A stretch of 64,000 nt of DNA from Dokdonella sp. (GTDB lineage Bacteria; Pseudomonadota; Gammaproteobacteria; Xanthomonadales; Rhodanobacteraceae): positions 1 through 64,000 of the forward strand of contig JAHCAR010000017.1 in NCBI GenBank assembly GCA_019634795.1. Direction: 5' to 3'. Below, piece after piece: positions 9,875 through 11,100 of the stretch; within the stretch, counting starts at the first letter, position 1; each line of letters begins with the position of its first letter. Made by a program: the position numbers and the translations under genes. The notes beneath the pieces were generated by a model, which saw only the letters and a program-made list of their open reading frames with translations, made no database searches and was not told the DNA's origin.

Positions 9875-9990
9875 CCCTTCTCCCTTTGGGAGAAGGTGGC
9901 CGCAGGCCGGATGAGGGTTCCTACGGAGCTTGGACCCAAATCAAAAGCGGACCCTCATCCGCCTTCGGCACCTTCTCCCGGAGGGAGAAG
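9875..9990. repeat. Convergent pair of REP-like repeats
   Basis: The left copy runs CCCTTCTCCC-TTT-GGGAGAAGG plus a tail ending GGATGAGGG. The right copy is its inverse, beginning ACCCTCATCC and ending CGGAGGGAGAAG. The pair can fold into one large stem, as BIME-type REP pairs do. It follows the serS stop by about 40 bases and could affect its 3' end, but there is no terminal T-run. Confidence 0.75.
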
Positions 9991-10067
9991 GACGCCAGTT
10001 GGGCGGAACCGGCGACTAGGCTAGACTTCACCGCCTGCAGCGCAAGCTGCGGCTAATGAAATCGTCC

Positions 10068-10254
10068 GGATCAAGGGGCGAGAGGTTCAAGGCAGCAGTC
10101 TCGCATTCGAATGCAGAGCCTGTCCCGGACTTGATCCGGGAAAGCCGAAGCCAACATCGCCGCAGGCGATGGCCCGTGGCGCGGAAGGCGGGACGCCCGA
10201 AGTCAAACTGCCGTGGTGGCGCGCGAAGCGCGCCTGCGGTAGACAACCGAATAC
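10068..10254 (+). repeat. tRNA-Ser-derived repeat unit A (most decayed)
   Basis: First of three tandem units of about 160-190 bases. Its left end keeps only AAGGCAGCAGTCT of the tRNA-Ser 5' half. Then come an insert with CCTGTCCCGGACTTGATCCG and a GC-rich core, then AACTGCCGTGG (the tRNA anticodon 3' strand), then the hairpin GGCGCGC-GAA-GCGCGCC. It aligns with unit B at a 187-base offset. Confidence 0.7.
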
Positions 10255-10441
10255 GGAGAGATGGCCGAGTGGTTTAAGGCAGCAGTCTCACATTTGAATG
10301 CAGAGCCTGTCCCGGACTTGATCCGGGAAAGCCGGAGCCAACATCGCCGCAGGCGATGGCCCGAAGGGCGGAGGGCGGGACGCCCGGAGTCAAACTGCCG
10401 TGGTGGCGCGCGAAGCGCGCCTGCGGTGGACAATCGAGTAC
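10255..10441 (+). repeat. tRNA-Ser-derived repeat unit B
   Basis: Bases 10255-10288 are identical to the first 34 bases of the real tRNA-Ser at 10603 (acceptor 5' strand, D arm, anticodon 5' strand). After about 104 inserted bases the unit resumes with AACTGCCGTGG, the anticodon 3' strand and what follows it. It then has a GGCGCGC/GCGCGCC hairpin where the long variable arm would be. T arm and acceptor 3' strand are absent, so this is not a functional tRNA. Confidence 0.8.
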
Positions 10442-10602
10442 GGAGAGATGGCCGAGTGGTTTAAGGCAGCAGTCTTGAGCGCGGAGGCAGGAAGCCGGAG
10501 CCAACATCGCGCCAGCGATGGCCCGAAGGGCGCAGGGCGGGACGCCCGGAGTCAAACTGCCGTGGTGGCTTGCGTAGCAAGCCATGGCGAGCGGAAAAAT
10601 TT
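10442..10602 (+). repeat. tRNA-Ser-derived repeat unit C
   Basis: Bases 10442-10478 match the first 37 bases of the real tRNA-Ser, including the anticodon TGA. A 76-base insert interrupts the anticodon loop, followed again by AACTGCCGTGG. The following hairpin is GGCTTGC-GTA-GCAAGCC, different in sequence from units A and B but with the stem preserved. The unit abuts the intact tRNA gene. Confidence 0.8.
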
Positions 10603-10692
10603 GGAGAGATGGCCGAGTGGTTTAAGGCAGCAGTCTTGAAAACTGCCGTGGGTTTACGCCCACCGTGGGTTCGAATCCCACTCTCTCCGCCA
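10603..10692 (+). tRNA. tRNA-Ser (anticodon UGA)
   Basis: A complete class II tRNA of 90 bases with encoded CCA. Acceptor stem GGAGAGA pairs with TCTCTCC, discriminator G. The D arm contains TGGCCGAGTGG. The anticodon loop is CTTGAAA with anticodon TGA. A long variable arm (GTGGG-TTTA-CGCCCAC) and a T arm GTGGGTTCGAATCCCAC complete it. It reads UCN serine codons. It follows three truncated copies of its own 5' half and is followed directly by a strong terminator. Confidence 0.97.
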
Positions 10693-10732
10693 GCTACGAA
10701 AAGAGCCCCTTGCGGGGCTTTTTTCGTAGCTG
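10693..10732 (+). terminator. Rho-independent terminator of tRNA-Ser
   Basis: Directly after the CCA end: stem AGCCCC-TTGC-GGGGCT followed by six T. An outer match (AGCTACGAAAA with TTTTCGTAGCT) extends the stem and makes it potentially bidirectional. A near copy occurs at 10949-10985. Confidence 0.9.
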
Positions 10733-10763
10733 TTGGACGGGGGTGCGTGGACGAACCCACTCG

Positions 10764-10837
10764 GTTGACTGCGGGCGTCCCGCCCTGCGCCCTTCGGGCC
10801 ATCGCCTGCGGCGATGTTCGCTTCGGCGTCCTGCCTT
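10764..10837 (-). repeat. Inverted copy of the GC-rich core of the tRNA-Ser repeat units
   Basis: On the minus strand this reads through the same core as units A-C, including ACATCGCCGCAGGCGATGGC and GGGCGGGACGCCC. It therefore lies on the other side of the intact tRNA in opposite orientation. Confidence 0.75.
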
Positions 10838-10933
10838 CGCAGTGAAAAATTCGTTGGGAACGAATTTTGACAGCCGCAGGCTGGCCCGGAGCGCGTAGCG
10901 CGGAGGGTGAGGCTCATGGATGAGCCGAGCCAT

Positions 10934-10985
10934 CCCACTCTCTCCGCCAACTACGAAATGAGCCCCCTCGCGGGGCTTTTTTTGA
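10934..10985 (+). repeat. Duplicate of the tRNA-Ser 3' end plus terminator
   Basis: CCCACTCTCTCCGCCA matches the last 16 bases of the intact tRNA. It is followed by ACTACGAAATGAGCCCC, a CGGGGC stem and an eight-T run, a near copy of the terminator after the real gene. A shorter third remnant (TTCCCACTCTCTCC) lies at about 11032-11045. Confidence 0.8.
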
Positions 10986-11100
10986 TCTTCCGAAAGTCGG
11001 CAATTTCACATTGCTCGATTCCATCGAACATTCCCACTCTCTCCCCGGCTAAAATGCAAAATCATCCAGGCGCGCCTGGGCAACGCGGGGAAGCTCGTTG

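Follow-up and report, generated by a model that had tools for sequence, protein, structure and literature searches.

Introduction

tRNA-linked repeats (TLRs) have been known in Escherichia coli since 1978, where there are 22 such sequences at ten loci, and they are defined by 18–19 bp in common with the 3′ terminus of the tRNA or rRNA gene that precedes them (PMC8144298). According to the same source, their function was not known before RrA, RrB and RrF of the rRNA operons were studied. RrB binds CsrA in electrophoretic mobility shift assays with a Kd of about 100 nM, a GGA mutant loses this binding, and RrB binds Hfq in vitro as well (PMC8144298). In the E. coli TLRs, including the tyrT repeats (rtT RNA, RF00391), an element lies between TTCGA and ATCC of a T loop and is followed by 18–19 nt of tRNA 3′ end, and the copies stand in tandem beside tRNA genes (178 nt at tyrT). 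A second group of described RNAs, the CsrB, CsrC and RsmXYZ sponges, has repeated hairpins in which the CsrB repeat, CAGGA(U/A/C)G, occupies the loops (PMC7652899). According to PMC7694677, no CsrB or RsmXYZ homologue is reported in Xanthomonas.

Here, we describe a locus in a stretch of 64,000 nt from Dokdonella sp. (Rhodanobacteraceae; assembly GCA_019634795.1, contig JAHCAR010000017.1, positions 1–64,000), which is called the window throughout. In this locus, a tRNA-Ser(UGA) gene is flanked by copies of its own 5′ part on the left and of its own 3′ end on the right, in association with an inserted RNA element. The locus is very probably a cluster of TLRs and its element a member of the TLR family. 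Judged from the sequence, the right-hand copy is an ordinary TLR, and the left-hand units are a TLR variant which is 5′-linked, lies upstream and uses the anticodon loop. On balance, we favour a wider account, in which this TLR cluster would have been formed by tandem duplication, its upstream units would be part of a tRNA leader, and the loops of its element would bind CsrA.

Organization of the tRNA-Ser(UGA) Locus

The intact tRNA-Ser(UGA) gene (anticodon TGA) is located at 10603–10692; this and all other features are on the plus strand unless stated otherwise. To its left are three tandem units, which start at 10068, 10255 and 10442 and have periods of 187, 187 and 161 nt, in agreement with the 160–190 bases given in a preliminary description of the locus. 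As that description also stated, two units begin with an exact copy of the tRNA 5′ end: the first 34 nt of the tRNA are repeated in the unit at 10255 and the first 37 nt in the unit at 10442. In every unit, an insert follows the anticodon loop, after which AACTGCCGTGG appears again, just as had been noticed. Unit 3 (10442–10602) comprises the tRNA 5′ part as far as CTTGA of the anticodon loop, the element, AAACTGCC (the 3′ strand of the anticodon stem), a hairpin and a spacer. Units 1 (10068–10254, with a degenerate tRNA 5′ half) and 2 (10255–10441) have the same order of parts, with slightly deviant left junctions (CTCGCATTC, CTCACATTT) and with a second repeat, AGCCTGTCCCGGACTTGATCCGGGA, nested within the first hairpin of the insert (at 10117–10141, in the hairpin 1 loop, in unit 1; at 10304–10328 in unit 2).

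Two models were used in the searches: R1, built from left-hand units, and R2, built from T-loop copies. R1 scores 55.8 bits in unit 1 (10091–10212), 66.7 bits in unit 2 (10278–10399) and 89.5 bits in unit 3 (10465–10561), unit 3 itself being one of the 22 sequences behind the model. The fold z-score of unit 3 is -3.0.

To the right of the tRNA gene there are, in order, a terminator, an inverted element, a T-loop-type element, 18 nt of tRNA 3′ end and a second terminator. The first terminator hairpin (10693–10730) was recognized by sequence and fold, and the consensus scan gave it on the minus strand only; the second (10960–10985) was reported by the consensus scan. The inverted element (10759–10853, minus strand; inverted repeat I1–I3) is of the anticodon-loop type, scores 69 bits with R1 and corresponds to the inverted insert core of the preliminary description. 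The T-loop-type element (10840–10936) belongs, with 24 other copies from the family, to alignment A5, so that its R2 score of 98.8 bits is high by construction. It forms part of a downstream tRNA-linked repeat that ends in an exact copy of the tRNA 3′ end, from T loop to CCA (10932–10949); this 18-mer, ATCCCACTCTCTCCGCCA, is present only at 10675 and 10932, 257 nt apart. A 13-nt remnant, TCCCACTCTCTCC (11032–11044; repeat family D8), is all that persists of a further 3′-end copy. The layout that had been reported, with 5′ parts on the left, 3′ parts (one with its own terminator) on the right and the intact gene in the centre, is therefore real, and its left part recurs in related genera.

Relationship to tRNA-Linked Repeats

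The downstream copy (10840–10949) has the two positional features of a TLR, i.e., it lies directly downstream of the tRNA gene and shares 18 nt with its 3′ end (10932–10949). Neither holds for the three upstream units, whose common sequence with the gene is its 5′ end (up to 37 nt). With three units upstream, a single copy downstream and one remnant, the cluster as a whole is within the range of one to five tandem copies. A core homologous to that of RrB and rtT was found with both models. In E. coli K-12, the matches of R1 are rrB, which lies between the two rrnB terminators (44.4 bits), and four repeats at tyrT–tyrV (28–38 bits). R2 detects rrB as well (31.6 bits), along with all 25 of the class and order stretches that were searched with it, out of 51 fetched. 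Since R1 recognizes both RrB and the tyrT–tyrV repeats, the element belongs with the TLRs. The E. coli argX-hisR-leuT-proM stretch has no R1 match (at most 8.6 bits). With the Rfam model RtT, one stretch (L257) reaches 42.8 bits (cut-off 45) and another (L255) has four matches of 34–38 bits, the latter also matching AaHKsRNA22 at 45.0 bits (cut-off 39.8). The window itself reaches at most 18.9 bits with RtT (cut-off 45), which counts against a homologous core.

Among the closest counterparts are RrA, RrB and RrF, in which this four-hairpin element recurs between two terminators and hairpins 1 and 4 contain GGA, but which are linked to 5S rRNA rather than to a tRNA and lack arrays of 5′ halves. 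In E. coli NC_000913, the element between the two rrnB terminators occupies 4171829–4171918 (L265, 230–319). This stretch is part of the terminator cassette of many cloning vectors. The E. coli TLRs lie downstream and share a tRNA 3′ end (PMC8144298), whereas the left-hand units lie upstream, are 5′-linked and have the element in the anticodon loop. A literature search that reached few subscription journals found no description of 5′-linked or anticodon-loop TLRs. The earlier statement that no element of such structure had been described does not hold for the right-hand half of the locus, which is a tRNA-linked repeat of the E. coli kind.

Other identities were considered. Group I and group II introns were rejected, as no Rfam intron exceeded its cut-off (group-II-D1D4-2 reached 19.4 bits, cut-off 36), and the matches to Rfam sX4 in the window are merely tRNA plus terminator. 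A first reading of the insert as a family-specific repeat was dropped, since the element is class-wide and related to RtT.

Fold of the Element

The element is a four-hairpin RNA of 75–95 nt, which is set on the stem of a tRNA loop that belongs to a partial copy of the adjacent tRNA gene. Its helices show compensatory changes. For the left-hand type (22 aligned elements, one of them partial), RNAalifold without a given structure predicted 25 pairs, corresponding to the anticodon stem and the four hairpins, and double changes are present in 9 of these. Tested on the named structure, the observed share of paired cells, the numbers of double-change pairs and cells, and the covariation score were matched by none of 500 shuffles, and sliding lowered the paired share from 97.6% to at most 38.4%. 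For the T-loop type (25 sequences), 20 pairs were predicted by RNAalifold, 11 of which have double changes. Covariation in the anticodon stem is not independent evidence, because the units track the resident tRNA; that in the hairpins of the insert is independent.

These changes bear on whether the units could be functionless, decayed tRNA duplicates that were kept by chance. The degenerate first unit and the occurrence of mosaic units would be in keeping with decay. Compensatory changes together with loop conservation across genera would not, nor would the near-identical units of a four-unit array in a relative (G020) or the membership of the element in the same family as the E. coli TLRs; decay is thus a very improbable explanation.

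Distribution and Placement

R1 matches were found in 165 of 233 genomes of the family (E ≤ 0.001), in 84 of 250 genomes drawn from the order, of which 31 belong to the window's own family, and in 39 of 229 drawn from the class (both E ≤ 1e-5); all three figures take in the source genome and copies that lie away from tRNA loci, and the strict filters lose weak copies. One place was fetched from each of the 38 other matching genomes of the class and from 13 of the order. These 51 stretches, together with two from E. coli, contain 75 R1 matches. Of these, 31 are in a T loop downstream of the tRNA (three of them in E. coli), nine in a T loop upstream (one of them in E. coli, between tyrT and tyrV), four in an anticodon loop (one without its tRNA in the stretch) and three in a D loop; 17 have T- or D-loop-like flanks without a matching tRNA in the stretch, and the other 11 are placed differently. 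The second match of L306 was scripted as D loop and assigned to the anticodon loop by reading.

Of the 31 downstream copies (class, order and E. coli set), 29 have exactly 17–20 nt in common with the tRNA 3′ end. Upstream copies retain the 5′ portion of the tRNA as far as the loop, followed by hardly more than the 3′ strand of its stem. The tRNAs concerned are those for Gln, Arg, Pro, Ser and Tyr. The anticodon-loop form was seen only within the order, in four families (f1, f2, f4 and f7; the window, L306, L305, L034 and L299). What the placements have in common is the left junction, which is NGA in 65 of the 75 matches. Examples are TTCGA^ATCC in a T loop, CTTGA^AAAC in an anticodon loop, GGCTGA^AGGC in a D loop and, outside tRNAs, CTGGA^ATCCAG. 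TTCGAA is present in 28 of 30 locus–tRNA pairs that host T-loop copies, compared with 17 of 40 tRNAs of the window's genome, a rough comparison only, as the two sets come from different genomes. The single fixed junction in the anticodon loop is real. Insertion aimed at this loop, as first proposed, is too narrow a rule, since the same element also occupies D and T loops in a number of tRNAs, as well as palindromes unrelated to tRNAs, in most cases directly behind NGA.

In ten short stretches (L185–L194) around dispersed copies of the element no tRNA was seen, and several of these copies are centred in other palindromic repeats (e.g., AAAGCTGGA^ATCCAGCTTT-like in L185). Conversely, the element itself has other repeats within its hairpin loops in L034, L096, L121 (hairpin 4) and units 1 and 2 of the window. 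It may be a general feature of these genomes that hairpin loops receive insertions.

Such copies would also be expected of a selfish palindromic repeat, i.e., a small hairpin, mobile or template-switched, whose landing sites would be DNA hairpin loops, behind NGA. In this case tRNA loops would simply be hit often, the element would survive only in duplicated, dispensable copies, and its GGA would serve its own mobilization and not the host. The copies in non-tRNA palindromes (CTGGA^ATCCAG and others), which occur in both orientations, the repeats nested in the loops of the element, and the coming and going of left-hand units within the genus all agree with this explanation. Against it, 42 of 70 matches in the class and order set (one relabelled by reading) lie in the loop of a partial tRNA copy whose matching tRNA is in the same stretch, GGA is held in two particular loops across the class, and left-hand units, although their exact repeats of up to 37 nt should make clean deletion easy, still recur in many species of Rhodanobacter and Dyella. 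Moreover, R1 found nothing in 18 regions fetched around Y1 transposase genes, which were a selection of the places listed; a looser motif scan of the same regions gave one lone CAGGA hairpin (L237) and one ANGGAT hairpin (L243). A selfish repeat is possible, but it is not the explanation that we prefer. The REP sequences mobilized by RAYT transposases are likewise short, palindromic and partly dispersed, and carry a GTAG head; they differ from the present element, which has conserved RNA loops. RAYT/REP mobilization was rejected, as a link to a Y1 transposase gene was seen in none of the 18 regions.

Placement in tRNA loops also raises the question of serial phage- or island-like integration, in which a tyrosine integrase would cross over in tRNA loops and leave minimal remnants of attachment sites. 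Integrases reportedly prefer to cross over at tRNA loops. Islands are described as entering tRNA genes and leaving a displaced fragment (PMC9897764, PMC4383910). However, units of about 160–260 nt leave no room for an integrase: in the window, only 239 nt lie between the two 3′-end copies, where an island would have its integrase between direct repeats of the tRNA end, and the units are at most 187 nt long. Furthermore, one structured RNA is found at many different tRNAs across a class. A phage or plasmid origin was rejected, as the phage and plasmid matches listed (20 of 103 and 20 of 89 records) cover the tRNA-Ser part of the query, and two of the four matches to viral contigs were read and are chance. 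Serial integration of this kind is extremely unlikely. Nothing points to an integrase behind the regeneration of one intact gene that the earlier description suggested.

Left-Hand Arrays in Related Genomes and Their Origin

The region has a match somewhere in 59 of 60 relatives, in many of which the match is the tRNA itself. Reading of the loci revealed left-hand arrays of four units of 161–162 nt in G020 and G001, and one or two units in G025, G028, G030 and G031. A pattern scan of genome contigs gave 59 stretches, of which 37 have a unit and 22 are chance matches, as judged from the printed context. A tRNA-Ser(TGA) gene was found by ARAGORN 110–791 nt downstream in 30 of the 37 and not nearby in the other seven. 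The 37 come from Rhodanobacter, Dyella, Oleiagrimonas and Fulvimonas and from bins named Rhodanobacteraceae, Lysobacteraceae, Lysobacterales and unresolved Pseudomonadota, and the highest number of units is five (L112); Oleiagrimonas soli has four. The search of related genomes that the preliminary description had suggested thus shows units in several genera. In the window's own genus, left-hand units occur in three of eight genomes with a recognized tRNA-Ser(TGA) gene (G000, which is the source genome, G001 and G007) and are missing from five (G002, G004, G006, G008 and G009). G003 and G005, in which the gene was not identified, are excluded from the eight, and the number of units in G007 is a minimum, as unit and tRNA lie at two contig ends.

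An assembly artefact, the alternative that had been named at the outset, was rejected, as G020, G001 and two genomes that consist of a single contig, G025 and G031, have left-hand units as well. Exact, in-register repeats of 34–37 nt, with the same left layout in other genera, exclude chance and assembly error as a general explanation.

Units with a CCGG stem are found where the tRNA has CCGG, and units with a GCAGT stem where the tRNA has GCAGT, the exceptions being L181 and the mosaics L112 and L116; only stem classes were used here, because the frame slipped in many scripted rows. Units are present at 31 of 45 loci with a GCAGT tRNA stem and at 7 of 14 with a CCGGT stem. The agreement between the stem of a unit and that of the resident tRNA indicates that the units were copied from the resident gene or exchange with it. 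The simplest path to the layout would be a tandem duplication of the leader and part of the resident gene (its 5′ half), which would yield an extra copy, followed by placement of the element in a loop of this dispensable copy. The number of units could then have grown by unequal exchange, as the near-identical units of G020 suggest. With exact repeats of up to 37 nt, precise deletion should be easy, so the recurrence of the arrays across the family suggests continual regeneration or selection.

Upstream of all units in the window is a promoter-like sequence, TTGGGC-N17-TAGACT (9999–10027, seen in the sequence). A TANACT box precedes the first 5′ half in all seven own-genus tRNA-Ser(TGA) loci examined (G006 is not among them), and TTGGG(C/A) stands 17–18 nt before it in G000, G002, G004 and G007. 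Given this position of the box, the left-hand units are probably the 5′ leader of tRNA-Ser, from which RNase P would release them. The interval from serS to the promoter-like box also contains an imperfect inverted repeat, CCTTCTCCC...GGGAGAAGG (9876–9991), which is shared with G002 (L206).

GGA Loops and CsrA

The family set comprises the 105 distinct sequences that remain from 158 matches, 150 of which were aligned. In this set, GGA is present in the loops of hairpin 1 (99 of 103) and hairpin 4 (96 of 104) and nearly absent from hairpins 2 (1 of 104) and 3 (2 of 104). The class, order and E. coli set has the same distribution, with 59, 1, 6 and 61 of 74 for hairpins 1, 2, 3 and 4. The commonest heptamers of the family set, CAGGATG, CAGGAAG and CAGGACG, fit the CsrB repeat. 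T-loop copies have ANGGAT hexaloops, like the ANGGAN loop of RsmE ligands; in 71 predicted folds, GGA is in the first loop of 54 of 63, in the middle loops of 3 of 58 and 2 of 53, and in the last loop of 38 of 71.

The source genome encodes CsrA, adjoining tRNA-Ser(GCT). The conserved GGA loops, the binding of CsrA by RrB, the presence of a CsrA gene and the promoter-like box together lead us to infer a leader that titrates CsrA. The GGA loops would bind CsrA/RsmA, and production of the tRNA would release, at the same time, an RNA that titrates this protein. This is a tentative proposal and the least certain part of our account. The resemblance to CsrB, CsrC and RsmXYZ lies in the repeated hairpins and their loops; the differences are that no Rfam match of these families is present in the window, that there are few sites per unit, and that the units are bound to a tRNA leader. 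A bolder version, in which a class-wide family of CsrA-binding RNAs lodges after NGA^A in any tRNA loop and the tRNA-Ser(UGA) leader of Rhodanobacteraceae yields a CsrB-like RNA with each round of synthesis, appears rather doubtful.

A number of observations weigh against the account that we favour, several of them concerning the loops. Five of the family GGA counts (two in hairpin 1, three in hairpin 4) are supplied by nested inserts and not by intact loops, and the sequences of A1 were chosen for having GGCAGG in the unit, many via the pattern AGGCAGG, which inflates the count for hairpin 1 and, to a lesser degree, that for hairpin 4. The last hairpin of T-loop copies has GGA in only about half of the folds. 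Several GGA motifs in hairpin loops are typical of the family, but the window is weaker in this respect, as hairpin 1 of units 1 and 2 is broken by another repeat, leaving no intact loop, and hairpin 4 reads CGGGACG rather than CAGGA. GGA loops are missing from the right-hand inverted element when it is read on the tRNA strand, and the fold prediction pairs this element with the T-loop element, which it may mask. In E. coli, the GGA loops are lost from the tyrT repeats, which R2 did not find at E ≤ 0.01; 19 of the 22 TLRs fall below 0.01 as CsrA sponges, and deletions of RrA, RrB and RrF gave no clear phenotype (PMC8144298). Of the covariation measures, five in all, that which counts further pair types is ordinary (matched by 141 of 500 shuffles), and in the mosaic units of L112 and L116 the anticodon stem is not fully paired. 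The generic consensus scan reported no promoter upstream of the units, and the promoter is weak by consensus. Finally, left-hand units are found in only three of the eight own-genus genomes with a recognized tRNA-Ser(TGA) gene, and there are copies outside tRNA loci, as would fit a mobile repeat.

Further Copies in the Source Genome

Among the 40 tRNA matches of the source genome, fragments of a gene's own ends were found only at Ser(CGA), Ser(GGA), Tyr, Phe and Ser(TGA), under strict thresholds by which some may be missed. Upstream of the tRNA-Ser(CGA) gene (contig C1; L002, 366011–366650) is a copy whose T loop is split by the insert (TTCGA^insert^ATCCC), and downstream is a TLR copy 257 nt from the gene's own 3′ end, the same spacing as in the window. 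The tRNA-Tyr(GTA) gene (contig C8; L055, 760–1180) is preceded by two 5′ copies, one long and one older and partial, with a period of about 206 nt and the element in the T loop of both. Two TLR-like copies with an inverted element, spaced 176 nt apart, follow the tRNA-Phe gene (contig C7; L065, 1577–1925), whose T loop, TTCGAT, is an exception to the TTCGAA rule. A T-loop copy is also present downstream of tRNA-Ser(GGA) (R2, 43.2 bits).

Downstream of tRNA-Ser(GGA) on contig C45 (L005, 1840–2200), the sequence GGAAGGAAGCAACGGCAGCAAGTGACTCGGGTGCC occurs twice, apparently as a partial duplication of another RNA gene, which we take to resemble SRP RNA. The csrA gene lies directly upstream of tRNA-Ser(GCT) in L035 and L006 (the Pfam test covered L006 only), and in L035, which is from G003, three or more T-loop copies stand in tandem after this tRNA.

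Implications

These findings extend the spread of the TLR element well beyond E. coli and provide one rule for its placement, mostly after NGA in D, anticodon and T loops. They also show that its copies fold alike, with GGA conserved in two of the loops, and that a 5′-linked form exists upstream of the gene, in what is probably a tRNA leader. The function of TLRs thereby becomes testable in environmental bacteria with a natural range from none to five units, and the units are candidate CsrA/RsmA sponges for an order in which, in Xanthomonas, the known sponge families were not found (PMC7694677). If the bolder version of the proposal is true, a CsrB-like leader would take the place of the CsrB/RsmZ function that the order lacks, and would tie the activity of CsrA to growth rate.

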